The position numbers and the translations under genes are program-made. DNA of 64,000 nucleotides, taken from IMG/VR virus record IMGVR_UViG_3300008448_008004, positions 1 to 64,000 of that record. One strand, written 5' to 3'. How positions within the stretch are numbered: the stretch's first letter is position 1; each line of letters begins with the position of its first letter. The notes beneath the pieces were generated by a model that was given only the letters and a program-made list of their open reading frames with translations, was not told where the DNA came from and did not search any database. Shown one piece after another: positions 3,142 through 29,465 of the stretch. Source of the DNA: a virus.

Positions 3142-3836
3142 TTTTTTTCTGCTTTACAAATTAACATAGCTTCTTTTGAGAATCTAATAATCTTGTTTGT
3201 TTTTTTACCCCATAATACTTTTTCAAATGGTGAGTATGGTAAAGGTAATTTTTGAATGATGTATCTAAAAATATTTAAAAATGGATATTTCCACGTTAAC
3301 GGTAATTGATAAAAATATTCACACTCAGAAACAAACCCAGATAGGTCACAAGCGGTTTCTAATGAATATCTAGTAAAAGGTGTAACATGTGTGTGGTCAA
3401 TATAGAAGGCTTCCTTATATGAATGTTTCCAACTTGGAGCCATACAAATTAATACGCCTCCCTTTTTTAACATTCTATATGATTCATCTAATAAAATATC
3501 CGGATTTTGTAGATGCTCAACAACAGATTTTGAAAAAATAAAATCAAATTTTTCATCTTTAAATGGGTATTTTTTTTCGTTTAAATTATAAGATTTAAAT
3601 TTTTTTGACGGTATGTTTTCTTTTGAGGAATTTGATATGTCCATTCCATAAGCATCTATACCACATTCAATAAAACATTTTGTTATTACTCCATCACCAC
3701 ATCCGATATCTAAAATCTTATCTCCTTCTTTTATGTTATATTTTTTTATAATATAGTTAACTAACTTTTTTGGGTAATCTGATTTATTTTCTTTATATGT
3801 TTTTTGAACATAATTAGGATTAAATATTGAACTCAT
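3138..3836 (-). CDS. Class I SAM-dependent methyltransferase
   Basis: A 232-residue Rossmann-fold methyltransferase. SAM-binding motif I reads ILDIGCGDGVITKCF near residue 42. The acidic residue of motif II follows in DAYGMDIS, and FDFIFSKSVVEHL and LKKGGVLICMAP match the later motifs. The FSKSVVEHL pattern is common in UbiE/Methyltransf_11 enzymes found in polysaccharide clusters. It lies between the CMP-sugar synthetase and the DUF115-like gene, with four-base overlaps on both sides. Methylation of a sugar or a glycan end is a reasonable guess, but the substrate cannot be seen. Confidence 0.8.
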   Translation of the reverse strand: MSSIFNPNYVQKTYKENKSDYPKKLVNYIIKKYNIKEGDKILDIGCGDGVITKCFIECGIDAYGMDISNSSKENIPSKKFKSYNLNEKKYPFKDEKFDFIFSKSVVEHLQNPDILLDESYRMLKKGGVLICMAPSWKHSYKEAFYIDHTHVTPFTRYSLETACDLSGFVSECEYFYQLPLTWKYPFLNIFRYIIQKLPLPYSPFEKVLWGKKTNKIIRFSKEAMLICKAEKK

Positions 3837-4552
3837 ATTTTTTCAGTTTTTAAAATTTCACTTAGACGTGATTCTACACTGGTGTTTATTATCTCAACGC
3901 CAATTTTTTTAGCACTATCGTTAATAATTCTAAAATCATTTAACATATTAGGTATAGTTGAGTCAAATTCCGTTGCCGATATTGGTGTCATATAAGAACC
4001 AAAATAACCTTTTTTATAGTCTAAATCTACCCCTGATACGTATATTTTTTTACACCCCAATAATATAGATAGGGCTAACATATGTACAGCAACAGTATCC
4101 CCCTCACTATATTTCTCAACATTACCTGTAAATTTTTGTAACTCTTCTTGTATTGTTAATCTATCACTAATAAAATTTTGACATCCGTTCGAACAACTAT
4201 AACACGTTTTATTATTAAAGTGTCTTTGGTCGTAACCCACATAATTTAAATTTCCTAAATTTTTTTCAATCCACCATCTAGGTGTTGAGTCTACTGAGTC
4301 TGCATGTACAAGTGATGTGTTGGGCATTCTTTTTAATCTATCAATTAAACTACCAACTTGTTGTGTATTCGCCCAAACCCAATAGTTAGGTTGTAAATCA
4401 CTTATCAAATCAATATCGTTACAAGAAACTAAAACTATATTTTTCCTTTCTTTTATAATATGTCCTATAGTGTCCGAAAGAGAAGGTCCTAAACCACAAA
4501 CAAATGATGTTTTGTCTTTCTCAAGGTTTATAATATCTTTTAAATTTTTCAT
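3833..4552 (-). CDS. DUF115 / MptE-like protein, possible glycosyltransferase
   Basis: A 239-residue protein with SFVCGLGPSLSDTI near the N-terminus and VAVHMLALSILLGCKKIYVSGVDLDY near residues 150-180. These two blocks define the DUF115 family (6-hydroxymethylpterin diphosphokinase MptE-like), which includes flagellin glycosyltransferases and sialyltransferase-like LPS enzymes. A cluster of cysteines (CYSCSNGC) sits in the middle and is not a family hallmark that I know. It follows the GT11-GT10 gene in an all-glycan operon. Transfer of the CMP-activated sugar made by the neighbouring synthetase is plausible but unproven. Confidence 0.55.
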   Translation of the reverse strand: MKNLKDIINLEKDKTSFVCGLGPSLSDTIGHIIKERKNIVLVSCNDIDLISDLQPNYWVWANTQQVGSLIDRLKRMPNTSLVHADSVDSTPRWWIEKNLGNLNYVGYDQRHFNNKTCYSCSNGCQNFISDRLTIQEELQKFTGNVEKYSEGDTVAVHMLALSILLGCKKIYVSGVDLDYKKGYFGSYMTPISATEFDSTIPNMLNDFRIINDSAKKIGVEIINTSVESRLSEILKTEKI

Positions 4553-4560
4553 AATATTTT

Positions 4561-6207
4561 TTATATTTTTAAAGTAAGTTTTTTGTAAATAATATCATCT
4601 GGCAACAAATATTTTTTTGATTTATTAAAATTATTTTTAATACTTTCTAGTCTTTTTATATAGTCATCTATAGATAAATTATTTATGATGTCCACTAACT
4701 CCTCAACATTGTCAAAAATAATCATACCGTTAGTGTCAAAAAAATCACCTATTGAAGGACACCCCCAATAAATTGGTACTGTTCCTGTTACAAAACAATC
4801 AATTAGTTTTTCAGTAAACCAATAATCTCTTTTAGTATTTTCCACTACGATGTGAAATTTATATTCTTTTAGTCCGTCAAGTTTATAGTCTATTGGGTTA
4901 TAAGTTCTACCGTATACGTCTATTTTACCATTTAATTGGTTAATAATATCGTGTCTTAATCTGTGACCATTTGTTTGAGTCTTATTTGATGATATTATAC
5001 TTATCATTTTTGATTTGTTGTAAATTTTTTGGTCCTCAGGTTTTATCCAACAACATCCAAATGGTAATAATTCATAATTTTCACCCTTGTCTAATAGTGA
5101 CTTTTCGTGTGTGAACACTTTTTTAAATTTATTATTGTTATTAACAATAAAATCATATGTATAAGATGCAATTTCTTTTGGCTCAATTAACCAAGCGATA
5201 GAATTATAGTTATTTGTAACTTCCCCTAATCTGGCGTCGGTATAAACAACAAAATCATTATCGTTTTTATTAAAATTTTCTCGTTTCCATTTAAAAAATA
5301 ATGAATCTTGGTAATCACTGCAGTAACCTATTTTTGAATGTGCAAATGTTAAGTCTATAAGATTAATAGTGTCGTTTTTTGTTTTTACTAATAAACCATT
5401 ATCATAATTAACGTTTACTTTGACCCACCCATCAACATATATGTTATCATAATCTTTAAAACCTTTAGGTCCAAACCACATACTTGGACATAAAACTTTT
5501 TTATTTTTGTTTTTATTTAAAAACGCGGACCACCATGAAAATGTTGAGTTTGATATTACGTTATTTTCACATAAACTCATCATCCATAAATCTTCATAAT
5601 CTTGTAACTGGTCAACAAAAACCGCTTTAGAAGATTTAATATTATTTTTAACCCAATTAATATCATCACTAAAAACATAAAATACATCAGTTAAGTCATC
5701 CAAAAGATTTATACAATAATTAATATAACTTAAATCTACTGATGGTAGTATGTCGTTTATGGTAAGATAATCACCTCTTCTAATGTGTATTGAAGTTGAT
5801 TTTTCATTTTTAAAATTTGGATACAAAGATTTTAATTTTGCAATAAAATTATTATCAGGACCAAACATTTTTTTTACATGTTCATCATAACCAAAAAAAT
5901 TGTTTAAACTTTGGTAATAACCATAGAATTCTATATTACTATCCCAAGAAAAATTTAAATTAGGTTTATTCCATGTTTCTTCAGAAACTCTTTTTTTATT
6001 AATAATTTTATCAACAAATTTTACATTTTTAAAAATGTTATCAACATAATTAATAGTTTGTTTAGATTGTGACATTGGGGTATAAGACACGGGTTCAAAA
6101 ACACTTTCTTTGTTATTTTTTAATCCTTGACAAACCGCATGTGCGATTTGAAACATTTGATTACCTAAGCCGCCCATCAAATAAGCAGTTGAATAAAAAT
6201 TTTCCAT
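4561..6207 (-). CDS. Bifunctional fucosyltransferase: GT11 fused to GT10
   Basis: A 548-residue protein that looks like two glycosyltransferases joined. Residues 1-260 carry GT11 (alpha-1,2-fucosyltransferase) motifs: GGLGNQMFQ at 12-20, HIRRGDY at 141-147 and SNSTFSWWSA at 219-228. Residues about 400-548 carry the GT10 (alpha-1,3/1,4-fucosyltransferase) C-terminal donor-binding signature. This runs from FHIVVENTKRDYWFTEKL at 451-468 to VPIYWGCP at 477-484. Residues 270-400 look like a reduced GT10 N-terminal half. Both families use GDP-fucose, so the protein may add two fucoses in sequence to one glycan. GDP-fucose would have to come from the host or from genes outside the window. The gene lies in the glycan operon between a GT2 and a DUF115-like gene. 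Confidence 0.85.
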   Translation of the reverse strand: MENFYSTAYLMGGLGNQMFQIAHAVCQGLKNNKESVFEPVSYTPMSQSKQTINYVDNIFKNVKFVDKIINKKRVSEETWNKPNLNFSWDSNIEFYGYYQSLNNFFGYDEHVKKMFGPDNNFIAKLKSLYPNFKNEKSTSIHIRRGDYLTINDILPSVDLSYINYCINLLDDLTDVFYVFSDDINWVKNNIKSSKAVFVDQLQDYEDLWMMSLCENNVISNSTFSWWSAFLNKNKNKKVLCPSMWFGPKGFKDYDNIYVDGWVKVNVNYDNGLLVKTKNDTINLIDLTFAHSKIGYCSDYQDSLFFKWKRENFNKNDNDFVVYTDARLGEVTNNYNSIAWLIEPKEIASYTYDFIVNNNNKFKKVFTHEKSLLDKGENYELLPFGCCWIKPEDQKIYNKSKMISIISSNKTQTNGHRLRHDIINQLNGKIDVYGRTYNPIDYKLDGLKEYKFHIVVENTKRDYWFTEKLIDCFVTGTVPIYWGCPSIGDFFDTNGMIIFDNVEELVDIINNLSIDDYIKRLESIKNNFNKSKKYLLPDDIIYKKLTLKI

Positions 6208-6208
6208 A

Positions 6209-6937
6209 TTATAGTGGTTTATATTTTTCTAAGTTTCTTATTATGTTTGCACATCTTTGTTGTTCTGTTTGTCCTGCACGAGCATTTTCTTTGTGTTCGT
6301 TATGTGGATTTTCTTCATTATATACTAGTAATATTTCAGGTATAAATTCATAATGTTTATCACCACACATCTCAATCATAGGGTATGAGTATGCAACATC
6401 AGGAGCTGCTTTAAAATATTCTCCATTTTCATCGGTAAATGATGATTCATCAATATTACGCCAAAGATGAACTTTCCATGTTCTCAAATGTGAAAACGAA
6501 AAAATATCCGTTCTAACTGTTTTATATTTTACTTTATTTGAAAATCCTATTCTACCATTTGAATAAACAAAACTTCCGTTAGTTAACCATAAATCTTTAT
6601 TTTTTTCATATTTGTTGTTAATAAACCCTAAGACTTTATCATCATACAACCAATCATCCCCATCCAATTCAACAATAACGTCATCATCTTTGAATAATAA
6701 TTCATCCATTAATAAATCATCCATGTTTTTTAGTTTATATTTTTTTTCTTTATTTTCTATTAGTATAAACCTATCATCCCCCTCAATTAGTTTTTTTATT
6801 ATTTTCACCGTATTATCAGTGGAAACATCATCAACCAAGTACATTTTGAAATTTTTATGTAATTGATTTTTAACTGAATTAATACATTTTTCAATATAGT
6901 TTTCGGCATTCCAAAAACAACTAACAACTTTAATCAT
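6209..6937 (-). CDS. Family 2 glycosyltransferase
   Basis: A 242-residue GT-A fold protein. It begins IKVVSCFWNAENYIEKCINSV, then has YLVDDVSTDNTVKII, the nucleotide-sugar-binding block of GT2 enzymes. The DXD-type metal site follows in VELDGDDWLYDD near residue 92. No membrane segment is seen, so it is probably cytoplasmic. It ends one base before the GT11-GT10 start and overlaps the GT2-GT4 gene upstream by eight bases. Donor and acceptor sugars cannot be assigned. Confidence 0.85.
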   Translation of the reverse strand: MIKVVSCFWNAENYIEKCINSVKNQLHKNFKMYLVDDVSTDNTVKIIKKLIEGDDRFILIENKEKKYKLKNMDDLLMDELLFKDDDVIVELDGDDWLYDDKVLGFINNKYEKNKDLWLTNGSFVYSNGRIGFSNKVKYKTVRTDIFSFSHLRTWKVHLWRNIDESSFTDENGEYFKAAPDVAYSYPMIEMCGDKHYEFIPEILLVYNEENPHNEHKENARAGQTEQQRCANIIRNLEKYKPL

Positions 6938-8570
6938 TTAAAATTTTGATATATTCTTTTTTTATTTTTTTAGCAACTTCTTCTGAATTAAATTTATTAA
7001 TGTCAGAAGGGACTTCATATTTATTTTTTTCTATAATATTACCATAATTGTCGACATTGTAAATCCATCCTGACTTACCACACATCCAACCTTCTATTGT
7101 TGTTCTACCTAATAAAATTCCTGCGGTCTCACTACAATTTTTCACATATTCCTCAACTTTATTAGTTGCACCAAAATGCTTAACATGTGTGTTTTCTAAC
7201 AACTCCGGTAAATAATTTGATTTGTTTTCACCAACTAACCAAAGTTCTTTACCTATTGATTTTGAATACTCAACTAAATCTCTAATTGTTTTTTCTCGTA
7301 AATAATCAATTGTTCCAACAAATAATACATAGGGATATGTCTTCGTATTTTTAGTATTAAATCTTTTAGTGTCTATTGGATTATAAATAACTTCAGTGTC
7401 AGATGAACTAATGTTAAAGTTATTAACTATATGTTTTTGTATTTCTGGTCTAATGCAAATATATTTTTTTATTGATTCGTGTATAAAAGGATTTTCTAAT
7501 TCAATTACCTCAGAGTGTATCGTTGATATTTTTGGGGTATTTGGATACATCTCCGTAATTTGTTTTGAAATTGGATTGTGTTGAATATGCATAATATCAA
7601 AATTTACATCTGACATTTTATACATCATATTTGGTTGACTTGTAACAACACCTTGAGGGGTATTGAATCCCCATTTTCCGTCACCCATTTTATAACCTGG
7701 TGGGTTAGAGAATGGTAACACTTTTATTCCTTGTTGGGATGCTAATTTTGAAAGCGGACCTTCAATATCTGAAAGAACCGTAACATCACAATTAAGTTTT
7801 TTTAACCCTTTGGCTAATTCATAAACATACATTTCAGAACCAGTAAAGGTTTTAAAAAATAAACAAGATAGTAAAACTTTAATCGGTGATTCTAATGTTA
7901 GGTTTCTTTTGATTTTTACAGGAAGAATGTCTTTGTGTCTTTCAGAAAAAATAATCCTATTTTTTTCCCATTCTTCGTTAGTCGCTCCAATTGATTTATG
8001 TGTGACTCTAACGTCATACATAACCCCAATCTTAACGTCTTCTATAAAGTTTCTAAATGAAAAATCAACATCGTAGAAGTGAAATCCTTTTATTTCTTCA
8101 TTAAAAGTTTCTATAATATTTTTTTTATTTATAACAATAAAAAGACCATCAATTAAAACTACATCATCTATTTGATTACCTAAACTTGAGGAATATTTTG
8201 ATTCCCATTTTTTACCTTCGTGTTCATGATTTACAATACCTTTCATTTTAGAAAAGTCTTCCCACCATTTTGCGGTTGATGGAAGTTGTGTTGAACCTGC
8301 TAGTCCTAAAATCCCATATTCAGGATTTCTTTTAAAATGTTTTAAAATCTTACTACCCCAATTCTTACTATCAAAGTAAATGTCATCATGACACAAAACA
8401 ACAATATCATTTGTTGATTGTTCTAAAATCATATTATAAGCTTCAGGTAAAGAATACTTTCCTTCATTTTCAATTGGGATGATTTCTGGATTAGAAACTC
8501 CACACGTTTTTTTTAACAACTCAATAAAATTACTATCTACCTTTCTTGAAGAAAAACCTATTGTAATCAT
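6930..8570 (-). CDS. Two-domain glycosyltransferase (GT2-like N-terminus, GT4-like C-terminus)
   Basis: A 546-residue protein in two parts. Residues 1 to about 220 resemble a GT-A domain that recognises a CHDDIYF metal-binding motif after NDIVVL; it includes VLIDGLFIVINKK and an FHFYDVDFSFRN segment typical of GT2-like domains. Residues about 228-546 look like GT-B family 4: KVLLSCLFFKTFTGSEMYVYELAKGL, then STIHSEVIE, a PIDTKRF loop and PYVLFVGTIDYLREK. Such fusions add two sugars or act on long glycans. It overlaps the dUTPase gene by four bases. Confidence 0.75.
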   Translation of the reverse strand: MITIGFSSRKVDSNFIELLKKTCGVSNPEIIPIENEGKYSLPEAYNMILEQSTNDIVVLCHDDIYFDSKNWGSKILKHFKRNPEYGILGLAGSTQLPSTAKWWEDFSKMKGIVNHEHEGKKWESKYSSSLGNQIDDVVLIDGLFIVINKKNIIETFNEEIKGFHFYDVDFSFRNFIEDVKIGVMYDVRVTHKSIGATNEEWEKNRIIFSERHKDILPVKIKRNLTLESPIKVLLSCLFFKTFTGSEMYVYELAKGLKKLNCDVTVLSDIEGPLSKLASQQGIKVLPFSNPPGYKMGDGKWGFNTPQGVVTSQPNMMYKMSDVNFDIMHIQHNPISKQITEMYPNTPKISTIHSEVIELENPFIHESIKKYICIRPEIQKHIVNNFNISSSDTEVIYNPIDTKRFNTKNTKTYPYVLFVGTIDYLREKTIRDLVEYSKSIGKELWLVGENKSNYLPELLENTHVKHFGATNKVEEYVKNCSETAGILLGRTTIEGWMCGKSGWIYNVDNYGNIIEKNKYEVPSDINKFNSEEVAKKIKKEYIKILND

Positions 8571-9184
8571 AAACCTGTACTTCCGAAACCATTTTCGTTT
8601 CTATCTTTTTCTTTTATTTCTTTAACTTGAATAAGGTTAACTAATTTGGCAATCGCAACAGGACTAAGTACTGCTTGTGCGATTTTTTGACCCTTTTCAA
8701 TTTTTTTTGTTTGATTTGTTGTGTTAAAAATAATAACCTTTATTTCACCTGTATATCCATTATCTACAGTTCCTGGTGAATTTAATACCATTAATCCTTC
8801 TTTTAATGCTAATCCACTTTTTGACCTGACTTGAATTTCATATCCAGGAGGAATATCAAATTTTAAACCTGTCGGAACCAACGCTCTATCAAAAGGATTT
8901 AATAATACTTCTTCATTAGACCTTAAATCAAAACCTGAATCATAATCATAAACATAAGAAGGATTTTTATTTTCACTATCATTTACATAGTTTAAATTTA
9001 CTTTCATATAATCTGATGACATTTCATCATCAATTTCTTCAAAATGTTTGTTTATATCGTTTAGATTAAACCCCATTGATTTTAACATTTCTTCAGGGTT
9101 ATTCATGTCAATATTACCTATTTTAGATTGTAGGTCTTTTAACATTTTAAATTGTTCTCTAGCTTCTTTAATTTCTTTAAACAT
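8567..9184 (-). CDS. dut: dUTP diphosphatase (trimeric dUTPase) with N-terminal extension
   Basis: A 205-residue protein. Residues about 78-205 hold the five dUTPase motifs in order: SGFDLRSNE, VRSKSGLA, VLNSPGTVDNGYTGEI, the GQKIAQAVL region and RNENGFGSTGL at the C-terminus. The enzyme hydrolyses dUTP to dUMP, which keeps uracil out of new DNA and supplies dTMP synthesis. The first 75 residues are an extra, probably helical, charged segment (EIKEAREQFKMLKDLQSKIG) not found in a usual 150-residue dUTPase. The gene sits among glycosyltransferases with near-overlapping ends, so replication and glycan genes share one transcript. Confidence 0.93.
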   Translation of the reverse strand: MFKEIKEAREQFKMLKDLQSKIGNIDMNNPEEMLKSMGFNLNDINKHFEEIDDEMSSDYMKVNLNYVNDSENKNPSYVYDYDSGFDLRSNEEVLLNPFDRALVPTGLKFDIPPGYEIQVRSKSGLALKEGLMVLNSPGTVDNGYTGEIKVIIFNTTNQTKKIEKGQKIAQAVLSPVAIAKLVNLIQVKEIKEKDRNENGFGSTGL

Positions 9185-9185
9185 A

Positions 9186-9914
9186 TTATTTTAATGATTT
9201 TAATTTTAAAATTCCGTTTATTAATACTTCGACATCTTTTTCGCAGTATTCTACAATTTCAGTTAATCTATTGTGTGACCAGTAAGCTTCGTGAACCATA
9301 CCACCATTTATGGGTCCGTCTTTAGGGGTAGGTATTTCTAAACAGGCACACATCAAATCTAATGAACCAATTGATGAGTAGGCTCCGTATTGCCAAATTT
9401 CTTTAGTGTCAATCGCTTTAACTTCCCAAGGCTTAGTATCGTATGAAGGTAACATTTTGGATGGTCTAATACCATTAATAATCATACGTTTTGCCAACAT
9501 AGGTATATCAAAGTTCTTTAGGTTATGCCCACATAGATAGAAATCTAATTTACTACATCTATCTAAAAGGGTTCTTACTTCCATTAGTAAGTCATGTTCA
9601 TTATCACCTGAAAAACTTTGTTTTTTAACTTCTCCATTCTCCATAACAAATGCGACAGACACACAAACAATTTTCGCAAATTCAGGAACTAGTGCAGTTC
9701 TTTTTGCATATACATCATTCATTTTTTGCATTTCATCTTCCAACCCGTTTGTTTCTACATCGTCTTCAGGGAAACGTTTTAAAAACCAATCAAAGTATTT
9801 AACAAATTGTTCTGCAATTTTTGGATTGGTGTTTTGACAAGTGCTCCAATCTTTACAAATACCGACAGTCTCGATATCTAAAAATAAAATTTTGTTAATA
9901 GGTATGTTTATCAT
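9186..9914 (-). CDS. DnaQ-like 3'-5' exonuclease (PolB-exonuclease-related)
   Basis: A 242-residue DEDD-type exonuclease. Exo I is LFLDIETVGI (Asp13, Glu15), Exo II is CGHNLKNFDIPML and Exo III is EYCEKDVEVL, with Tyr four residues before the Asp (DEDDy class). The layout matches predicted 3'-5' exonucleases related to the editing domain of family B polymerases. It may process DNA ends during replication or repair, or degrade host DNA. One base separates it from the dUTPase gene, and it overlaps the GT4 gene by four bases. Confidence 0.8.
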   Translation of the reverse strand: MINIPINKILFLDIETVGICKDWSTCQNTNPKIAEQFVKYFDWFLKRFPEDDVETNGLEDEMQKMNDVYAKRTALVPEFAKIVCVSVAFVMENGEVKKQSFSGDNEHDLLMEVRTLLDRCSKLDFYLCGHNLKNFDIPMLAKRMIINGIRPSKMLPSYDTKPWEVKAIDTKEIWQYGAYSSIGSLDLMCACLEIPTPKDGPINGGMVHEAYWSHNRLTEIVEYCEKDVEVLINGILKLKSLK

Positions 9915-11125
9915 TTTACTAAGGATTTATATAATTCTGCTCTATCTCTTGTTACTTTATTTAAATCATATGTGTCTTTAACTGTTTCATACAATCTTTG
10001 ACCTAAATCGTATGCGAAGTTAGGGTTATCGATTAATTTTTTCATGTATTTAGCCCAATCACTATGACTTCTTGCTTCATCAACAAGTAATGCATTACCA
10101 TCTGTAAATTCACCATTTTTCATAGCGTGTTTTAAATCGACAGTATATGGACCAACATTAGAGGCGATGATTGCTTTTTTATAGAATCCCGCCTCAATTA
10201 CTTTTAATTGTGATTTAACTCTATTAAAAATGTGATTTTTAATTGGGGCTAATGATACATCAAACCATTTATAGTTATTAGCATAACTTGTTACTGGTTT
10301 AGTCCAAACTCTATTATAGAAAGGTAATTCATCTGATTTATATTCTTCTTCAACAAATTTCATTAAAAAATCTTTATGTGATGGATTAACTAATTTGTAA
10401 TTATCAGTAAATATTTCTTCATATCTTGACCAAACAGTCTCTTCAGGTTTAATATCACGTTGTTTTTGTTCACCTGTTTGTTGATTGATTTCAGTAACCG
10501 TTCCTCTAATATCAAAACCACAAAGATACATACTAAATTTATCTTTTAATGGTGTTAATTTATTCATAGTTCCATCTAAAAGTTTTAAATCGTGAAGGTG
10601 AGATGAACCACCTAACCAACCAAATCTTAACTTATCGGATGGTTCAGTTTTAGCATTAAATTGAGGTTCTTTTGGATTAATCGCATTTGGAAGTACGTAA
10701 ACATTTTTATTAAATTTAGATATTTCTTTTGCAAAAATAGATGTAGTTGTGGTAACATGACCAGCAACTTTTAGGTTATTAATAATTTTTTTATGTAATT
10801 CTGTTTGTATAACCATTTGATGAACTGGATGCTCTTTTGTTGGTAACCAATAATCATCTAAGTCCATTATAGTGACGATACCTAAATTATTTAATTTTTG
10901 AATTAAGTTAACTGAGTTTTCATAATCATGACCAACCGTTCTGTGGAAATGAACTATATCGTATTGTTTCCAATAGTTTAAATCATTAACTTTTGGTTCG
11001 TAATCAATATCAATATGAAATTCATCCGCGTGATTATTTTGTAGACAGACATGTGGGTCAACACTTCTAAATTTCCCAACTCCCGTTTTGTCTGACGGTA
11101 ATACTAAAACTTTTATTTTACTCAT
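9911..11125 (-). CDS. GT4-like glycosyltransferase
   Basis: A 404-residue GT-B fold protein and the first gene of the long minus-strand run. It has an N-terminal ...TGVGKFRSVDPHV segment, IVHFHRTVG, IMDLDDYW, VLPNAI near residue 147 and RFGWLGGSSH, which is where the GT4 donor domain begins. A late KVIEAGFYKKAIIASNVGPY segment corresponds to the conserved nucleotide-sugar-binding EAxxxgkPvIas region. The usual E(x7)E is imperfect. It presumably modifies the same glycan as its neighbours. Upstream is an 86-base gap with the terminator of the next operon. Confidence 0.75.
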   Translation of the reverse strand: MSKIKVLVLPSDKTGVGKFRSVDPHVCLQNNHADEFHIDIDYEPKVNDLNYWKQYDIVHFHRTVGHDYENSVNLIQKLNNLGIVTIMDLDDYWLPTKEHPVHQMVIQTELHKKIINNLKVAGHVTTTTSIFAKEISKFNKNVYVLPNAINPKEPQFNAKTEPSDKLRFGWLGGSSHLHDLKLLDGTMNKLTPLKDKFSMYLCGFDIRGTVTEINQQTGEQKQRDIKPEETVWSRYEEIFTDNYKLVNPSHKDFLMKFVEEEYKSDELPFYNRVWTKPVTSYANNYKWFDVSLAPIKNHIFNRVKSQLKVIEAGFYKKAIIASNVGPYTVDLKHAMKNGEFTDGNALLVDEARSHSDWAKYMKKLIDNPNFAYDLGQRLYETVKDTYDLNKVTRDRAELYKSLVK

Positions 11126-11830: not shown

Positions 11831-12232
11831 CTATGCTAAGTTTTCAGTGTTATCGTCAAATTTTGCGTTTACAATAACTCTAACCATTGAATTGTCACCG
11901 TTAGGGTTATATAAAGGTCTGACTTCATTAAACTTATCCCCTTGTAAAGCATAAGTCAATATTTTATCTAATCTAAACATCCTCCAACCTGGAATTGGGT
12001 TGCCCTCAACTTTATTTGAGTGTGATGCTCCTTGTCTTTCCCAAGCTCTCAATACCATATTACCTTTTTTACTAATACCTAAGCAAACTGGTTCAATGTC
12101 ACGATATCCTTTACCGTACTCATCACCTTGGTAATTAATAGTGATTACATTTTTTTGCTTGATGCTTTTTTGAACATCATCAATAGATGCAACTTCCGTA
12201 ATTAGTTTGCTTAAAGTTTTAATTAACTTCAT
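11831..12232 (-). CDS. WYL-domain-like protein
   Basis: A 133-residue protein. Residues about 28-95 read as a WYL-type SH3-like barrel: ITINYQGDEYGKGYRDIEPVCLGISKKGNMVLRAWE, then PGWRMFRLDKI. WYL domains bind nucleic acids or nucleotides and regulate transcription or defence proteins; some phages carry them alone. There is no helix-turn-helix. The first 14 residues (amphipathic, ending ITE) resemble a T4-type capsid-targeting leader. It is one base from the downstream gene and overlaps the upstream one by four bases. Confidence 0.55.
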   Translation of the reverse strand: MKLIKTLSKLITEVASIDDVQKSIKQKNVITINYQGDEYGKGYRDIEPVCLGISKKGNMVLRAWERQGASHSNKVEGNPIPGWRMFRLDKILTYALQGDKFNEVRPLYNPNGDNSMVRVIVNAKFDDNTENLA

Positions 12233-16062: not shown

Positions 16063-18927
16063 GTGACAGCTAATACACCAAACTTAAATATAAAAATTAT
16101 GGTTCCACAAGAAGAAATTGAACGCTTTTTATTAGGCGAAGACGACGAAAAATATATTGTTTCACTCGAATACGATTACAAAACATCAAAAATTTATAAA
16201 GTAATTCAAGACCCTATTAAGGGTAAGTTGTTACGTCCTGACACATTCATCCCATTTGCATGGGTTGGTGACTTGAAGGGTAAAAACTTTTACAAGAACG
16301 ACAAACACGCACAAAAACGTGCGATGAGTGAAAATGGTATCATTATTGAAAAATTAGATACTTACGGAGATGAACGTTTAGAAAACGGACTCAAGTACAT
16401 TGTTAAAACAACAAAATCATACTCAAACCTTGTAAACTTTTTTAAGGGTGGAGGTTTAGACCCATGGGGTAGAGACAACACGGATAGTATACAAATTCTA
16501 TCACCTGTAGAACAATACCTTATTCAAAAAAACAAACGACTATTCAAAGGATTTGAAGAATACGATGAAATCCATAGGTTTGTATTCGATATCGAGACCA
16601 CAGGTCTTGACCCCAAAACAAGTAAGATATTCTTGATAGGGATGAAAGACAATCGTGGTTTCTTAAAATTATTATCCGCACAAAATGAAGATGAAGAACG
16701 TCAAATGATTGTTGACTTCTTCAAGACTATTGATGAATTAAAACCATCTTTAGTTGGTGGTTACAACTCAGCATTCTTTGACTTCCCATTTATTTTGAAA
16801 CGTGCTGAGATTTTGAAATTAAATATCAAAAAAATATGTAAGACGTTACATCCTGATTATACTTTGAAACAAAAAGATGGTATTCTAAAGTTAGCGAACG
16901 AAATGGAACCATATGTTCAAACTCAGATGTGGGGGTATAACATTGTGGATATTGCACACGCCGTTCGTAGAGCTCAAGCAATCAACTCAGACATTAAGAG
17001 TTGGTCTTTGAAGTATATCACAAAATTTATTGAAGCAGAAAAACCAAATCGTGTTTATGTAGAAGGAGATAAGATTGGTAAAATATATTTTGATAATGAA
17101 GAGTTTTGGATGAATAAAGAAAACGGAGTATACAAAAAGGTTGGATTTGATTCTAAAATAGATGAGGTCTGTAAAAGACGTGACGATGTTTATAAATTGA
17201 TTACGGGGTCTAAGATTATCGAGGACTACTTGGATGATGACCTTTATGAGACGATGGTTGTTGATGAGCAGTTTAATCAGGCCAATTTCTTATTATCCAA
17301 ACTTGTACCAACAACATATGAAAGACTTTCAACTATGGGAACCGCAACGTTATGGAAAATGATTATGTCTTCATGGTCATATAAACATAATTTAGCTCTA
17401 CCAAGAAAATTAGAAAAAAGAAAATTTACAGGAGGTCTTTCTCGTTTGGTTCAGGTTGGGTTCTCTAAAAACGTATTGAAACTTGACTACTCTTCACTAT
17501 ACCCATCTATTCAGTTGGTTCATGATGTGTTCCCTGCTTGTGATGTTACAGGTGCGATGAAAAGTATGTTAAAGTATTTCCGTGATACTCGTATTAAGTA
17601 TAAGAACTTGGCAAGTGAATATAAAACAATAGACCCAAAACTTGCAATTTCATACGACAGAAAACAATTACCAATTAAAATCTTTATCAACGCATTCTTT
17701 GGTTCGTTATCTGCACCACAAGTATTTCCGTGGGGCGATATAGATATGGGTGAACAGATTACTTGTACGGGTAGACAATATCTTCGTCAGATGATAATGT
17801 TCTTTATGAAACGAGGTTATGTTCCTCTTGTAATGGATACGGATGGTGTAAACTTTGAAACTCCATCGGACCGTGATGAATACAAATACGTCGGTAAAGG
17901 TCTTAATGGATTAGTTAAAGAAGGAAAAGAATATGTTGGCGCGGAGGCTGATGTGGCAGAATACAATGATTTATTCTTACGAGGTGAAATGGGATTAGAC
18001 ATCGATGGTGTTTGGCCTTCAACCATTAACGTGGCTCGTAAAAACTATGCTCTACTTACAGACAAAGGAAAAGTAAAACTTACAGGTAATACAATTAAAT
18101 CTAAAAAACTTCAAACATATGTTGCTGAATTCTTAGATAAAGGTCTTCGAATGTTATTAGATGGTAAAGGTGGTGAATTTTTAGATTTCTATTACGAGTA
18201 TGTGGATAAGTTGTATAACCGACAAATTCCTTTGGCTAAAATTGCAAATAAAGCTCGTGTTAAACAATCTATTGATGATTATAAAGTTCACATTACAAAA
18301 ACCACAAGGGCCGGTAATATGATGTCCCGCCAAGCACACATGGAGCTTTTAATTAAAGAGGGTAAGAATCCTGGTCTTGGTGATACTATCTACTATGTTA
18401 ATAATGGTGAGAAGAAATCACACGGTGATGTTCAAAAGAAAAAAGATGAATTAGTTTTAAATTGTTATTTGATTGATGAAAAAGAAATTGAAAGGAATCC
18501 CGATTTATTAGGGGAGTATAATATTGCTAGATATATGGCTGCGTTCAACAAAAGAATTGAACCATTATTGGTTGTATATAAACCTGAAATAAGAGAAGAC
18601 ATTTTAATTGAGGACCCTAAGGATAGACCTATTTTTACAAAGACACAAACAGAACTTGTAAGGGGATATCCTATGAAGGAAGCTCACCAAGACACTTTAG
18701 AGGAGGTTTTATCCTTATCTGATATGGAACTAACGTTTTGGAAAAATGTTGGTATTGACCCTTACTATATGTATATTGATAATACATTAGAATTGGTTGA
18801 TACAGAATGGGTTCAAAAAAATAGGGATATGATGGATGAGTTTGTAAAACAAAACACTAAAGTAGACCAAGACGAATATTATGAATTCGATGCTGAAGGT
18901 GATTTGATGACTCTTAGTTTCGACTAA
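16063..18927 (+). CDS. Family B DNA polymerase with 3'-5' proofreading domain
   Basis: A 954-residue T4 gp43-type replicative polymerase. Exonuclease motifs: FDIETTGLD (Asp176, Glu178), GGYNSAFFDFPF near 232-243 and KSWSLKYITKF. Polymerase motifs: A is LDYSSLYPS near 474, B is KIFINAFFGS near 540, and C is VMDTDGVNF near 590-598. Both catalytic Asp residues of motif C are kept, but the usual DTDS is DTDG. The frame opens at GTG 16063; ATG 16099 (MVPQEEIERF) is an alternative start that keeps every domain and has the A-rich leader common here. Its promoter is Bacteroidota-like, and its last codons form one arm of an intrinsic terminator. Confidence 0.95.
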   Translation: MTANTPNLNIKIMVPQEEIERFLLGEDDEKYIVSLEYDYKTSKIYKVIQDPIKGKLLRPDTFIPFAWVGDLKGKNFYKNDKHAQKRAMSENGIIIEKLDTYGDERLENGLKYIVKTTKSYSNLVNFFKGGGLDPWGRDNTDSIQILSPVEQYLIQKNKRLFKGFEEYDEIHRFVFDIETTGLDPKTSKIFLIGMKDNRGFLKLLSAQNEDEERQMIVDFFKTIDELKPSLVGGYNSAFFDFPFILKRAEILKLNIKKICKTLHPDYTLKQKDGILKLANEMEPYVQTQMWGYNIVDIAHAVRRAQAINSDIKSWSLKYITKFIEAEKPNRVYVEGDKIGKIYFDNEEFWMNKENGVYKKVGFDSKIDEVCKRRDDVYKLITGSKIIEDYLDDDLYETMVVDEQFNQANFLLSKLVPTTYERLSTMGTATLWKMIMSSWSYKHNLALPRKLEKRKFTGGLSRLVQVGFSKNVLKLDYSSLYPSIQLVHDVFPACDVTGAMKSMLKYFRDTRIKYKNLASEYKTIDPKLAISYDRKQLPIKIFINAFFGSLSAPQVFPWGDIDMGEQITCTGRQYLRQMIMFFMKRGYVPLVMDTDGVNFETPSDRDEYKYVGKGLNGLVKEGKEYVGAEADVAEYNDLFLRGEMGLDIDGVWPSTINVARKNYALLTDKGKVKLTGNTIKSKKLQTYVAEFLDKGLRMLLDGKGGEFLDFYYEYVDKLYNRQIPLAKIANKARVKQSIDDYKVHITKTTRAGNMMSRQAHMELLIKEGKNPGLGDTIYYVNNGEKKSHGDVQKKKDELVLNCYLIDEKEIERNPDLLGEYNIARYMAAFNKRIEPLLVVYKPEIREDILIEDPKDRPIFTKTQTELVRGYPMKEAHQDTLEEVLSLSDMELTFWKNVGIDPYYMYIDNTLELVDTEWVQKNRDMMDEFVKQNTKVDQDEYYEFDAEGDLMTLSFD

Positions 18928-18935
18928 GAGTTTTT
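18910..18935 (+). terminator. Intrinsic terminator overlapping the DNA polymerase stop codon
   Basis: ACTCTTAG (18910-18917) and CTAAGAGT (18924-18931) pair perfectly over eight bases around a six-base loop, followed by five T. The polymerase TAA (18925-18927) and the convergent gene's stop (18924-18926) both lie inside the right arm. The minus-strand reading lacks a T run, so it acts mainly on the plus transcript. Confidence 0.85.
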
Positions 18936-19256
18936 CAATCCATCAGAAGAAAGAATATACCAAAAGTCACCAATTTTACGATATTCAACACAAGCGCCCT
19001 TATCTAATTCGATTATATCAAATTCTTCATCAATTAAAGAATCTGCAGTTACGTCAACTCTTGTAAGTGCTTTTATAACCACATGGTCTGTAGTTTTTGA
19101 ATTTAAAAATAACTCACAAAGTTCAACTCCTTTGATGACAATTGCCGATTCGCCGTTTGTTGTGTATTTAGAATTTGTTACAACAGCAACATCTGAAGTC
19201 ACAATCTCATGACCATTTATTATTCTTTTAGATGGAATTGACCTGAATACTGACAT
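18924..19256 (-). CDS. Hypothetical small beta-rich protein, 110 aa
   Basis: An unrecognised protein rich in Val, Ile and Thr with a predicted run of short beta strands (EIVTSDVAVVTNSKYTTNGESAIVIKGVELCELFLN...). It ends KIGDFWYILSSDGLK. This resembles phage head- or tail-decorating beta proteins that carry a terminal W-Y-I-L-S strand. It follows the neck protein gene by seven bases in the same operon, so a small virion protein is the likeliest role. Its stop overlaps the polymerase stop on the other strand. Confidence 0.6.
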   Translation of the reverse strand: MSVFRSIPSKRIINGHEIVTSDVAVVTNSKYTTNGESAIVIKGVELCELFLNSKTTDHVVIKALTRVDVTADSLIDEEFDIIELDKGACVEYRKIGDFWYILSSDGLKNS

Positions 19257-19263
19257 AAAATTA

Positions 19264-20385
19264 TTAAATAACCGTATATGGACTTTGGAATGCCCTTAAC
19301 TTTAATAATTTGTTTAAATTCTCAGCTTGTAAAGCCTTTTGTTCCATCATTTTTTCTGGACGTAATCTTTCAAGCCTTGTTTTTAGTTCTTCCCATAACA
19401 TAGCTTTTTCATCTTTAGCTTCTGTTGATAAGGATGAATAGTCCATTGTTAATTCGGAATCAGGTGTTTTTAAATTACCACTAAACTTACCTCTAACTCT
19501 TGCTAAAGTTTCTTTACAATATGCTGTAAACCATCTCCTAACCCAAGTTTGTGCGGGTGGATTTAATTTATCCCATCTTAATTTATCTAATGGAATATCT
19601 GAAGGTAATCTTACAACATCAGGATTTTTAGCCAAACAATCTTCTCTATCAAATGTATCGTAATACCAATACCAAACTCTATGTTGGTTTCGTCTCATAT
19701 TACCAAAATCAAATTTACCTCCAGGAACATTCATTAAGTGAATTGCTTTTTTTCCTTCAGGTAGTGCGGTAACTCGATATGTTAAGTCTCCTGTTATAAT
19801 TCTTCTTTTCATTTGAATATCCGCCATTCTTAAAAGGATATCAAATGCGGGTGTGATAAAATAGTTACCCGTTGTTCCCATCTGAGAAAAACCGGCACCA
19901 CCACCTAAACCAATACCTCCAAATCCCCCAAATCCACCCATGAATGGGTCGAAGTAAGCAGCATCCAATTCTGGTCTTGCAAACCATAAAAGTTCGTTCA
20001 ACTCTCTACCTGCAGGTATTTCATAAATTTGTTGGTTAGGTACCAAGTCGATGTAATCTTTTTTCAAAACCCAATCACCACCCGCTTGAAGACCAACAAT
20101 TTTAGAATATGCGTACGTAAATTGAGTTTCCCAATCCATACTTCTTGTTGATAATGCTCTTGTGATTGATTGTTCGTCAAGGTTCAAACCATATACTGAT
20201 GTCCATTGAGATTCAATTAACCAATCCTGAACGTGTTGTTCATAATCTTCAATAGATAATTCCAATAAAGAATCCATCATTTCGTCCTCTAATTCTACAG
20301 AACGTAACGGCGCACCTAAAAGATTTCTAATCCTTTTGTAAAGTTTACTTCTATCAGGTTCATTAATTATAACAACAGTTGACAT
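19264..20385 (-). CDS. Neck protein, gp13-like (head completion)
   Basis: A 373-residue protein. The N-terminus (LYKRIRNLLGAPLRSVELEDEMMDSLLELSIEDYEQHV) and the C-terminus (WVRRWFTAYCKETLARVRGKFSGNL, then long helices) follow the pattern of T4 gp13-type neck proteins. These form the ring that joins the portal to the tail. It is somewhat longer than T4 gp13 (about 310). The extra length includes a glycine-rich loop near residues 148-166 (GGFGGFGGIGLGGGAG). A TATTTAT motif lies 13 bases upstream. The assignment is from pattern and context, with moderate confidence. Confidence 0.55.
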   Translation of the reverse strand: MSTVVIINEPDRSKLYKRIRNLLGAPLRSVELEDEMMDSLLELSIEDYEQHVQDWLIESQWTSVYGLNLDEQSITRALSTRSMDWETQFTYAYSKIVGLQAGGDWVLKKDYIDLVPNQQIYEIPAGRELNELLWFARPELDAAYFDPFMGGFGGFGGIGLGGGAGFSQMGTTGNYFITPAFDILLRMADIQMKRRIITGDLTYRVTALPEGKKAIHLMNVPGGKFDFGNMRRNQHRVWYWYYDTFDREDCLAKNPDVVRLPSDIPLDKLRWDKLNPPAQTWVRRWFTAYCKETLARVRGKFSGNLKTPDSELTMDYSSLSTEAKDEKAMLWEELKTRLERLRPEKMMEQKALQAENLNKLLKLRAFQSPYTVI

Positions 20386-20421: not shown

Positions 20422-21510
20422 CTACTCGGACTTCTTTTTAATTTGATTATTATATTGGTCATTTACAAACGACCAATTAACTACTTTCCAAAAGTTAGAG
20501 ATGTATTCGTCTCTTTTATTTTTATATTTTAGATAATAAGCGTGTTCCCACAAATCTAACCCTAAAAGTGGATATCCACCATCTTTTTCGGTATTCATAA
20601 GTGGGTTGTCTTGATTAGATGTGGTTAATACTTTTAGTCTATTGTTTTTTGTTAAAACTAACCAAACCCACCCCGAACCAAATTTTGATTTAGCTTCTGA
20701 ACTAAACAATTCTTTAAATTTTTCAAAAGAACCAAAGTCTTTTTTAATTTTAGAAAGAATTGGGTCGGTTATCTCTTGTTTTTTTGGTGATAACATTTTC
20801 CAAAATAATGCGTGATTAAATGCCCCACCACCATTATTTTTTACCACTTTATTAAACCTTGATATTTTCTCTATAATTTCTTCTAAGTCTAAATCTTTTC
20901 CTTTAATTTTTTCTAATTCAACATTTAGTTTTTCAACATATCCTTTGTAATGTTTGTTGTAGTGAGTATTCATAGTATCACTATCAATAAATCTTTCTAA
21001 AGAATCATAACTATAAGGTAGTTTATCTACACTAACTTTTTTTATTTCAGTAATTAATAAATTTTTTTTTGACGAATCAACTTCTAATAAAGATTCAATT
21101 GATTCAATCTTTTCTGAAAATAATTTATAAACTGTTTTTTCTAATTTTTTGTGTGATTTTTCAAACTTTTTAATTTCTTGTGATGCTTGTGAACTAGCCT
21201 CGTCTTCATTTTTTCCACCAATATCTTTTCCTTTTTTTCTTTTTAAAACATTTCGTTGGTATTCGTGAGACCACTCGTGAGCTAATGTTCTCATTACGTC
21301 ACGATTTAATCTATTTTTTACTAAAATTTTAAGTTTGTTTTTGTTGGTTCTTGAACCCGTTGTCATTTCACCATTTCTTTTATTTTGAAATAAAATAGTA
21401 ATATCATCTTTTAATGGATAATTCTTTTTAAGTTGTGAAATAAAACTCTTAATTAATTTTTCATCTTCTTTTGATGGCTCAATTCCAATATATTCAATAT
21501 TAACTTCCAT
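20422..21510 (-). CDS. HExxH metallopeptidase domain fused to Mn-type superoxide dismutase
   Basis: A 362-residue protein. Residues about 1-125 hold a zinc-peptidase-like domain with HEWSH at 78-82 and acidic candidates for a third ligand at 102-104 (NEDEAS). Residues about 160-355 are a complete Fe/Mn superoxide dismutase. It starts LPYSYDSLERFIDSDTM, and all four metal ligands are present: His183, His233, Asp319 and His323, the last two in LDLWEHAYYLKYKN. The active-site Tyr is at 191. The GGGAFNH sequence and Gln300 in SNQDNP point to the manganese type. SOD converts superoxide to oxygen and hydrogen peroxide. There is no signal peptide. A TATTTAT motif lies 5 bases upstream. The neighbours are a neck gene and a helicase, so the protein could be made late or packaged. 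Confidence 0.88.
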   Translation of the reverse strand: MEVNIEYIGIEPSKEDEKLIKSFISQLKKNYPLKDDITILFQNKRNGEMTTGSRTNKNKLKILVKNRLNRDVMRTLAHEWSHEYQRNVLKRKKGKDIGGKNEDEASSQASQEIKKFEKSHKKLEKTVYKLFSEKIESIESLLEVDSSKKNLLITEIKKVSVDKLPYSYDSLERFIDSDTMNTHYNKHYKGYVEKLNVELEKIKGKDLDLEEIIEKISRFNKVVKNNGGGAFNHALFWKMLSPKKQEITDPILSKIKKDFGSFEKFKELFSSEAKSKFGSGWVWLVLTKNNRLKVLTTSNQDNPLMNTEKDGGYPLLGLDLWEHAYYLKYKNKRDEYISNFWKVVNWSFVNDQYNNQIKKKSE

Positions 21511-21515
21511 GATAT

Positions 21516-21522
21516 ATAAATA
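21516..21522 (-). promoter_or_regulatory. TATTTAT motif before the peptidase-SOD gene
   Basis: Reads TATTTAT on the minus strand, five bases before the ATG at 21510. If it is a -10-like element, the transcript would be almost leaderless. Confidence 0.4.
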
Positions 21523-23286
21523 TCATCGGTTCTTAGAAATTAAATTTAACATTTCTTCTATGATTGTCGCTTCGTCAAACATATCATCACCCATTACAGT
21601 TGATATGATTTTCTTTTTTCTGTTGAGTATATCATATATTGCGCCTTCTATTGTGTTTTCAAAAAGTGGATAATAAACAGATGTTGAATTTTTTTGACCA
21701 ATTCTGTGGGACCTATCTTCCGCTTGTGAATGTTCAGCAGGGACAAATGATAAATCATTCATAATTACCGCCTCGGCTGAGGTTAGTGTAATACCAACCC
21801 CCGCAGCCTTTAGGTTTCCAACAAATACTCTTATTTTGTCGTTTGTTTGAAATTCGTCAACAGCATTTTGTCTATGAAATTTAGAACAACTTCCGTCAAG
21901 ATATACCGCTTGTTTTCCAAAATGGTTATAGATAATGTTTAGAGTGTCTGTAAAGTTTGTGAATATAATAACCTTTTTACCTTGCTCAATAATATTTTCA
22001 GCCAACTCAATTGTATTATTAATTTTCTCTTGTGCTATAACCTTTCTAACTTTCATTAATTTTGAAAACTGAATTGTTAGGGATGAAGACTCTTCAGGAT
22101 TTGAATCATACCAATCAAAGTATTCCCCCATCAATTCTTCATAATCTTTTGATTTTAGTCTTAGATAAACAGGAGTTATAATTTTTTCAGGTAAATCTAA
22201 AACATCTTCTTTCAATCTCCTTAATATGTGAGTTGACGTTCTTTCTCTTAACTCATCAAGATTTGATGCTCCAGTAACATTCCAAACTTTTCTTTTACCA
22301 ACACTAAATTGGAATCCGTTACAGTATCTTTTAGCATACGCCATCCAATTAGCAGCAACAGGACTATCAACAAGATTTAATAAATTATAATAATTCATAG
22401 GTCTTGAAGTCATTGGGGTTCCCGATAATAACCACACCCTTGTTGATTTTTGTGCGATGTCGTTTGCAATTTTTGTTCTTTGTGCTTGTGGGTTTGAAAT
22501 CATGTGAGCTTCATCCATGATTACCAAATCAAATTTTGTTTTTAATATTTCTGACTCTTCTTTCTTTTTTGGGTCGTGGAAATTTTTTAAGATATCATAA
22601 TTGATGATAACAAAATCGTGTTCGGTTGAAAATTTCTTCCCTTCTGCAATAAAAACAGACCTATCAGAATAATTTGCAATTTCACGTTCCCAATTTATCT
22701 TTAAAGATGCTGGACATACTATTAATATTTTTTTAGCTCCCGTTTCTAATGCTGCAACGATTGTGGAAGTTGTTTTACCAAGACCCATGTCATCAGCTAA
22801 AATAAACTTCTTATTCTTAACCAATTTTTCAATTGCTTCTTTCTGATGAGTCATTGGCGGTCTGTGGGAATATTTTTCATATTCTATTTGGACATTCTTT
22901 ACTTCATTATCTTTTAACAATGCTGTTTTAGGCATCCAAAAGTCATGTAATGTCTCACCACTAAAAACCTTACCCCAAATATGATATGCTTTATCTTTTT
23001 CAACCAACAACTTCTCAACATATATTTCAGTTGGTTCTTTGGTATACATTTTATCTTCAGCTAACTTTTTAGAAAAATATAAGTCTAACTTAACCCATTT
23101 TTTTGCAACTTTTGGTTGAGTATTTTTATAGTTGTTGATATATTCTGCCTGACTTCTTGTCGGTACAAATGATTTACTATTTTCCTTCTTATGTTTTAAA
23201 TTGAGGATGTAGTTATTTGACCCATCATACGTTTCTAACGCTAAAAGGGCTTGAGACTCTATTGTTTTTGGTATAAAATCTTCCAT
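21523..23286 (-). CDS. SNF2-family DNA helicase/translocase
   Basis: A 587-residue superfamily 2 ATPase. Residues about 145-590 hold all the SNF2 motifs: MTHQKEAIEKL (Q-like), DDMGLGKTTSTI (Walker A), MDEAHMISNP (Walker B), LLSGTPMTSRP (III), VFVGNLKAAGVGITLTSA (V) and EDRSHRIGQKNSTSVYY (VI). The order and the short insertions resemble SMARCAL1/RapA-like annealing helicases common in large phages. The first 140 residues include a DNA-binding-like HIWGKVFSGETLHDFWMPK strand region. It may remodel replication forks or recombination intermediates, like UvsW of T4. It lies 13 bases before the peptidase-SOD gene on the same strand. Confidence 0.92.
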   Translation of the reverse strand: MEDFIPKTIESQALLALETYDGSNNYILNLKHKKENSKSFVPTRSQAEYINNYKNTQPKVAKKWVKLDLYFSKKLAEDKMYTKEPTEIYVEKLLVEKDKAYHIWGKVFSGETLHDFWMPKTALLKDNEVKNVQIEYEKYSHRPPMTHQKEAIEKLVKNKKFILADDMGLGKTTSTIVAALETGAKKILIVCPASLKINWEREIANYSDRSVFIAEGKKFSTEHDFVIINYDILKNFHDPKKKEESEILKTKFDLVIMDEAHMISNPQAQRTKIANDIAQKSTRVWLLSGTPMTSRPMNYYNLLNLVDSPVAANWMAYAKRYCNGFQFSVGKRKVWNVTGASNLDELRERTSTHILRRLKEDVLDLPEKIITPVYLRLKSKDYEELMGEYFDWYDSNPEESSSLTIQFSKLMKVRKVIAQEKINNTIELAENIIEQGKKVIIFTNFTDTLNIIYNHFGKQAVYLDGSCSKFHRQNAVDEFQTNDKIRVFVGNLKAAGVGITLTSAEAVIMNDLSFVPAEHSQAEDRSHRIGQKNSTSVYYPLFENTIEGAIYDILNRKKKIISTVMGDDMFDEATIIEEMLNLISKNR

Positions 23287-28455: not shown

Positions 28456-28593
28456 ATGAAAATAGAAAAAAAACTAATCAAAGAATCTTTAGGATACAAT
28501 ACTAAAGGAAAACAAACTTTTGCAGATAAAAAGCAAAATATTATTATTACAGAAGCTCAATTAGAAAAATTATTGGAAAAACTTAAAAAATAA
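28456..28593 (+). CDS. Small basic protein, 45 aa
   Basis: ATG 28456 to TAA 28593, 45 residues: MKIEKKLIKESLGYN..., then ITEAQLEKLLEKLKK. It is lysine-rich with a C-terminal helix. Its stop and the next gene's start share a base (TAATG), which suggests coupled translation. The leader (amphipathic, ending IKES) resembles other N-termini here. Function unknown. Confidence 0.55.
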   Translation: MKIEKKLIKESLGYNTKGKQTFADKKQNIIITEAQLEKLLEKLKK

Positions 28594-29465
28594 TGAATAT
28601 TAGAAAGCATATTAATCAATTTATTAAATCTCGTAGTTTGAATGAGGGGTTCACTGAAGAAGGAAATCCTGACACAAAATACTACGCGTTTGATTGGGAT
28701 GATAATATAATGTTTATGCCAACTTCAATCATGGTCCTTAGTGAAAACGACGAAGAAGTACCGATGTCTACAGAAGACTTTGCGGACCACAGACATCAAA
28801 TTGGTAAAGAACCGTTTTCTTATAAGGGAACTACTGTTGTTGATTTTGCACCAGACCCATTTAGAAACTTCGGGGTTAAAGGTGATAAGAGATTTGTATT
28901 AGACTCTATGATAGCGTCTGTTGGACCGTCTTGGAATGATTTTGTTGAATGTATAAACGGAGGTTCAATTTTCGCAATTATCACGGCAAGAGGTCACAAC
29001 CCAAAAACTTTAAAAGAAGGTGTGTATAATTTAATAATGTCTAATAAAAATGGTCTTAATAGTAGAACATTGGCTGAAAACCTTTATAAATACAGAAATA
29101 TAGGTAATGAAGTTACTGATAATAAAAAGACAAGGGCATTAACACCAAAAGAATTACGTGAGTATTTGGACCTTTGTAGATTTTATCCCGTGTCTTTTGG
29201 TGAGGGGTCGGCAACTAATCCTGAAGAAGGAAAAATCAAAGCTATGAGAGAATTTATTTCTTACTGTAAAGATATGGCAAAAGAAGTGGGTGAAAAAGCA
29301 TACTTCAAAAATGATGTGGAAAACAATGAAATACTTCCTATAATTGGTTTTTCTGATGATGACCCAAGAAATATCGAAAAGATGAAAGAATTTTTAGATG
29401 ATGAAGATAAAGAAAAACTAGTAAAAACTTATTTAACTAAAGGAGGTGAAAAGAAAGAATACTAG
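28593..29465 (+). CDS. HAD-superfamily hydrolase-like protein
   Basis: A 290-residue protein. Motif I is YYAFDWDDNIMFMPT (nucleophile Asp34 and general acid Asp36), motif II is FAIITARGHNP (Thr131) and motif IV is GFSDDDPRN near residue 252. The spacing and DxD fit haloacid-dehalogenase-type phosphatases. The substrate is unknown; candidates are a nucleotide, a DNA end or a phosphoprotein. It lies between the sheath and tube genes, where related phages also carry such enzymes. The first 18 residues form an amphipathic helix ending LNE, a possible capsid-targeting leader. Confidence 0.75.
   Translation: MNIRKHINQFIKSRSLNEGFTEEGNPDTKYYAFDWDDNIMFMPTSIMVLSENDEEVPMSTEDFADHRHQIGKEPFSYKGTTVVDFAPDPFRNFGVKGDKRFVLDSMIASVGPSWNDFVECINGGSIFAIITARGHNPKTLKEGVYNLIMSNKNGLNSRTLAENLYKYRNIGNEVTDNKKTRALTPKELREYLDLCRFYPVSFGEGSATNPEEGKIKAMREFISYCKDMAKEVGEKAYFKNDVENNEILPIIGFSDDDPRNIEKMKEFLDDEDKEKLVKTYLTKGGEKKEY

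Follow-up and report, generated by a model that had tools for sequence, protein, structure and literature searches.

A zincin-superoxide dismutase fusion conserved in uncultured T4-like phages carries candidate prohead-protease sites between its domains

A gene on the minus strand of the window (the whole 64,000-nt stretch analyzed, positions 1 to 64,000 of IMG/VR virus record IMGVR_UViG_3300008448_008004) encodes a 362-aa protein in which a zincin-like HExxH metallopeptidase domain is fused to a Mn-type Fe/Mn superoxide dismutase (SOD) (20422..21510; ORF list, Pfam, IMG/VR scan and alignment). With moderate confidence, we infer that its product is a late-made polyprotein that would be packaged in the phage head, where the prohead protease would process it, and then be ejected together with the DNA. 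A role in the virion, which the earlier note had raised, is made plausible by conserved cleavage motifs of the T4 gp21 type.

The open reading frame described earlier is real, and its strand, previously unstated, is minus; the plus strand of 20422-21510 is full of stop codons. An IMG/VR scan found relatives of the fusion encoded on at least 591 stretches, and in all 80 of the loci kept from these (56–100% identity) the two domains are read in one frame. The fusion of a peptidase-like domain to a SOD, for which a search in related phages had been proposed, is therefore genuine, and the objection that a chimera, misassembly or frameshift had produced it fails because the single-frame fusion recurs in 80/80 loci and the neighbors are identical in those inspected. 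Bacterial contamination is ruled out by the flanking genes, which encode a phage helicase, neck protein and DNA polymerase. Across the 25 inspected loci, wherever the contig extends far enough, the fusion gene is flanked, immediately or almost so, by a conserved upstream gene for a UvsW/SNF2-like DNA helicase (21523..23286, minus strand; Pfam, PHROGs and synteny) and a conserved downstream gene for a T4-type neck protein or head-tail adaptor (Ad2; 19264..20385, minus strand; PHROGs and synteny), the latter matching phrog_211 "head-tail adaptor Ad2" at 2.1e-10. A conserved 110-aa ORF with no assigned function lies farther downstream (18924..19256, minus strand; synteny). The earlier placement of the gene in a "tail/neck region" was thus right about its neck neighbor but loosely worded, as the gene sits between the helicase and neck genes on the minus strand. 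Elsewhere on this strand, a cluster of glycosyltransferases, an aminotransferase and a methyltransferase-like gene (1146-11125) perhaps serves surface-sugar synthesis or DNA modification.

Upstream of the fusion gene, TATTTATA (21515..21522, minus strand; motif count) is a candidate late promoter element located 12 nt before the start codon. The TATTTAT motif reported earlier is real: of the 52 distinct sequences upstream of the fusion gene, 43 contain it, usually 12 nt from the ATG, and it lies on the coding strand within 50 nt upstream of 19/74 genes, versus a Markov expectation of 2.1 (the reverse complement was found 6 times). Genes bearing the motif include several structural ones, and Shine-Dalgarno-like sequences are absent upstream of genes in this genome. 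TATTTAT may accordingly be a late promoter element, possibly of an unusual form. T4-type TATAAATA on the coding strand was rejected as the late promoter since the enriched coding-strand motif is TATTTAT. Copies located ~10-45 nt upstream of genes are scattered across window positions 12979-64000, with others at 66924, 74097 and 81871 of G000.

The SOD domain (residues 161-355; 20446..21030, minus strand; Pfam, PDB and NCBIfam) matches Pfam Sod_Fe_N at residues 161-241 (3.9e-22) and Sod_Fe_C at residues 250-351 (1e-40), both far over cut-off, and its top PDB match is the MnSOD 5a9g (E=2e-58). The SOD fold call rests on this homology to solved MnSODs, while structure modeling was run for residues 1-125. 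All four metal ligands noted earlier, His183 (20962-20964), His233 (20812-20814), Asp319 (20554-20556) and His323 (20542-20544), are present, together with the second-sphere Tyr191 (20938-20940) and the Mn-type Gln300 (20611-20613). These residues, which span 20542..20964 on the minus strand, are invariant in an alignment of 43 sequences, as are H187, E322 and Y326. The invariant Q300 and the motif NNxGGxFNH constitute a Mn-type signature, with metal preference predicted from sequence. Q300, contributed by the C-terminal domain, occupies the position of E. coli SodA Gln146, with Gly at the FeSOD Gln69 position, and residue roles were assigned from what is established for E. coli SodA. The SOD has a complete Mn-type active site, and enzyme activity is predicted.

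The N-terminal domain (residues 1-125; 21136..21510, minus strand) matched no Pfam, PHROG or NCBIfam family over threshold and was recognized by its fold (AlphaFold2 and Foldseek). The structure prediction that had been proposed for these residues returned a zincin-like model (pLDDT 92.7), in which a small beta sheet is accompanied by two C-terminal helices, the first bearing HExxH and the second Glu102. The HEWSH sequence was confirmed at residues 78-82 (21265..21279, minus strand) as the predicted zinc-binding and catalytic motif, and Glu102 (21205..21207, minus strand) is predicted to be the third zinc ligand, following the published description of the zincin fold (PMC5512222). H78, E79, W80, H82 and E102 are all invariant in the 43-sequence alignment. 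A Foldseek search of the PDB placed M61, thermolysin and aureolysin zincins among the top matches, all of them weak (E ≥ 0.14, the best being 0.14, with nothing at E < 0.001); against viral models, matches were strong (to 1.5e-12) and comprised uncultured-phage and IrrE-like proteins, with IrrE-like phage proteins the closest named proteins by fold. The fold was also detected inside larger multidomain phage proteins that carry amidoligase or AAA annotations, and stand-alone homologues occur in cyanophages S-SRM01 and B23. B23-type free zincins, from phage B23 and uncultured relatives, begin with M-x-YKQFL-x-E|S in 9/9 cases (L173:3827-4201 and L235-L243), a leader reminiscent of T4 capsid-targeting sequences.

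The two domains are connected by a linker (residues 126-160; 21031..21135, minus strand; alignment columns) that is mostly poorly conserved. Within it, Ile-Thr-Glu155 (21046..21054, minus strand) is a candidate gp21-type cleavage site: in the 43-sequence alignment, Glu155 (P1) is kept in 43/43 and Ile or Leu at P3 in 43/43, while P2 is free and the rest of the linker is mostly variable. Leu-Leu-Glu143 (21082..21090, minus strand) is a second, weaker [I/L]-x-E site whose position is not conserved. In a wider set that includes zincin-less proteins (131 distinct proteins), the Glu at P1 ahead of the SOD is present in 131/131 and P3 is Ile or Leu in 128/131 and Val in 3. T4 gp21 cleaves after L/I-X-E, and sites of this type are also typical of core proteins (PMC9026906). 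A cut after Glu155 would free the SOD with a natural N-terminus.

Relative to within-window shuffles, [I/L]xE is enriched about twofold before the SOD (114 seen versus 58.4 expected) and about threefold after it (55 versus 18.2), and it occurs in all 31 non-redundant post-SOD junctions (14.6 expected). Under the same shuffles, [I/L]xD, [I/L]xK and [V/F/M]xE were not enriched at the junctions; [I/L]xxE and E.[IL] were also somewhat raised before the SOD. The enrichment z-scores overstate independence because the sequences are kin, but despite this inflation the post-SOD junctions lead into mutually unrelated modules. Several features count against processing and packaging: [I/L]xE is a short motif, P1' is Ile or Met in the zincin-SODs versus Ala in the capsid protein, and in a low-confidence model the linker is partly helical. 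The linker equivalent in the relative L053 (residues 128-167) has pLDDT < 50, and in the 714-aa fusion model (mean pLDDT 64.7), which is too weak for judging the third module, termed C below, both linkers are of low confidence.

A protease suited to such sites, the gp21-type S77 family (PF03420), scored over cut-off in contigs of 9/17 relatives; it is known from relatives alone since the window's 93.8-kb record is incomplete and lacks head genes. The relatives' gp23-type major capsid protein invariantly shows LINE|A(A/S/T)S around residue 61, a putative site close to the position at which T4 gp23 is cut, with the loss of 65 residues on maturation (PMC9958956). SODs without a zincin begin with a linker-like leader ending in [I/L]xE|(A/M)KKIGI(E/D)KLPY, for example MKSLEEKVKLLTEDIKRHSAKKSLLTE|AKKIGIEKLPY. 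The window protein itself lacks a capsid-targeting sequence at its N-terminus, where the zincin starts directly. Its linker is probably a processing site, and the zincin and SOD are probably separated inside the head, neither of which was part of the earlier note. Short [I/L]xE leaders also occur in window proteins at 28593-29465 (plus strand; SLNE|G), 46552-47241 (plus strand; YILNE|Q), which has a weak GrpE match, and 11831-12232 (minus strand; LITE|V), and these might be further head-packaged proteins.

Judging from its relatives, the window protein belongs to a larger family of shuffled polyproteins, a point likewise absent from the earlier description. Relatives at 50-60% identity are often ~700 aa long and consist of zincin, SOD and one of three modules, A (L049, L051, L057, L075 and L080), B (L043, L047, L062, L070 and L074) or C (L045, L046, L053, L068 and L076), or a shorter module, D (L064, L067 and L167). 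These four modules are mutually unrelated, substitute for each other C-terminal to the SOD, and are all joined via [I/L]xE sites. Searches with modules A, B and C revealed additional architectures, namely SOD-first proteins without zincin, SOD-B, SOD-C-B, SOD-E and free-standing A, B and C. In the SOD-E proteins (508-516 aa; L352, L354-L358, L361, L363, L369, L371 and L373), a fifth segment, E, lies behind a zincin-less SOD, and for most of them a module-B gene lies immediately downstream; the three-module SOD-C-B proteins (911-916 aa; L383, L385 and L386) also lack the zincin. Modules A-D had no convincing family in Pfam, PHROGs, NCBIfam or PDB sequence searches. Module C keeps E148, D188 and QVK204, a pattern that by motif may resemble PD-(D/E)XK nucleases.

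Under the packaging reading that we favor, a polyprotein of zincin and active Mn-type SOD would be made late in infection and destined for the head interior, in relatives with an extra module behind another [I/L]-x-E site. The T4 gp21-type prohead protease would cut after the Glu while the head matures, so that the products, namely SOD released with a natural N-terminus, the zincin and, where present, a third module, would stay in the head alongside the DNA. These contents would be ejected with the DNA into the next cell, where the delivered SOD could remove early-infection superoxide, or shield the incoming DNA, ahead of phage gene expression. Alternatively, the SOD may be an ordinary late auxiliary enzyme that acts unpackaged in the host cytoplasm for assembly or lysis, with the linker as a flexible tether. 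We consider this unlikely: the complete SOD active site, the late-type promoter motif and the existence of free-standing SODs elsewhere, such as in Vibrio phage 2.275.O, are consistent with it, but it leaves unexplained the fixed Glu155 and P3 Ile/Leu in a variable linker, the linker-like leader on zincin-less relatives and the [I/L]xE ahead of all of the unrelated modules.

A slightly less probable explanation is that the metallopeptidase, not gp21, cleaves the polyprotein or, once injected, attacks proteins of the host, the SOD being either carried along or a second effector. No domain is more common than the zincin in injected "polyvalent" phage proteins, and zincins have been proposed to process these multidomain chains (Iyer et al. 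2017, PMC5512222); the invariance of HExxH and Glu102 would fit this role, as would the zincin-like domains detected by fold in the larger amidoligase- or AAA-annotated proteins. However, the [I/L]xE sites are kept in proteins that have no zincin and match the capsid-protein motif of the same phages. Polyvalent proteins, which occur in phages and conjugative elements, resemble the fusion in combining disparate enzymatic domains in one chain, in their zincin-like metallopeptidase and in their shuffled modules, but the fusion differs in bearing prohead-protease motifs at its junctions, which suggest gp21 rather than the zincin as the processing enzyme. The main text of PMC5512222 mentions neither superoxide, dismutase nor catalase. 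A purely structural SOD fold, acting as a core or scaffold element of the inner head with catalysis secondary or lost, would suit the adjoining neck gene and the gp21-type sites typical of core proteins but is highly improbable, given that the ligands, second-sphere Tyr, Gln and dimer-interface Glu/Tyr, needless for pure structure, are invariant in 43 diverged sequences.

The closest known counterparts to a packaged polyprotein are the internal head proteins of T4 (IPI-III and Alt), whose capsid-targeting propeptides are cut by gp21. Both have [I/L]-x-E beside the mature domain, and the relatives studied here are also T4-like, with a gp21-type protease and a gp23-type capsid protein; head location and ejection are predicted for the fusion. 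In contrast to T4, the predicted cargo here combines a zincin with a SOD in a single polyprotein that contains internal sites, and leaders are found in the zincin-less SODs and B23-type zincins rather than in the window protein. Because the latter has no capsid-targeting sequence at its own N-terminus and its presence in virions is a prediction, we do not class the fusion as a T4 internal protein.

Literature searches turned up no phage SOD presented as a head-packaged protein or cargo. We tentatively suggest that T4-like phages forming a large clade, whose hosts are probably Bacteroidota, pack and inject an active SOD polyprotein with a metalloprotease and swappable effectors, so that superoxide generated on infection, possibly as a host defense, would be cleared ahead of all phage gene expression. 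If so, an antioxidant enzyme would be a delivered phage weapon and a new type of cargo for an established delivery route. This would suggest that early superoxide, within minutes of infection, is important enough to counter from the virion, and a possible oxidative arm of anti-phage defense would become directly testable. Placing prohead-protease sites between modules may be how T4-like phages fill their heads with diverse enzymes. The shuffled modules are candidates for more injected effectors.

The best cellular matches to the SOD are nearly all from Bacteroidota (about 42-54% identity). In the SOD tree, the phage SODs form one clade with 98/100 support, interrupted only by a Fluviicola MAG sequence on a long branch; the row nearest outside the clade is a Bacteroidota SOD whose placement is weak (88/35). 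The closeness of Bacteroidota cellular SODs, together with the absence of Shine-Dalgarno-like sequences, suggests a Bacteroidota host. The phage proteins share the complete fold and active site of bacterial Mn-type SodA from this phylum but differ from it in forming their own clade and in having an [I/L]xE leader and fused modules.

The earlier view that Fe/Mn SODs are rare in phages holds for deposited records but not for uncultured phages, given the at least 591 stretches encoding relatives. Among 50,697 deposited phage records, none contains the full fusion (80% of its length), and those with a SOD include PA5oct-like Pseudomonas phages, Vibrio phage 2.275.O, in which it is free-standing, and a few uncultured records. 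The PA5oct protein gp223 (L388:2495-3043), annotated as hypothetical, is a SOD homologue that keeps the ligands and starts with MNDSIKKYISIAE|A, a leader resembling a capsid-targeting sequence (...ISIAE|A). Its record is annotated "ESI-MS/MS", a hint that the protein was detected in virions. It differs from the window protein in its low identity (27%), its lack of a zincin, its unrelated jumbo-phage lineage and a His in place of Gln. In the SOD tree its branch is so long that its placement is uninformative on relatedness. UniProt A0A6J5L953 (501 aa) bears the automatic name "superoxide dismutase [uncultured Caudovirales phage]"; compared via its BFVD model alone, it aligned with the L053 fusion model over 501 columns at 36% identity. 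Many other SOD matches among deposited phage records resemble bacterial DNA: "phage" records OR84xxxx/OR85xxxx, AGRM01000004 and AFYI01000005 encode ordinary bacterial-looking SODs and may represent host chromosome contamination.
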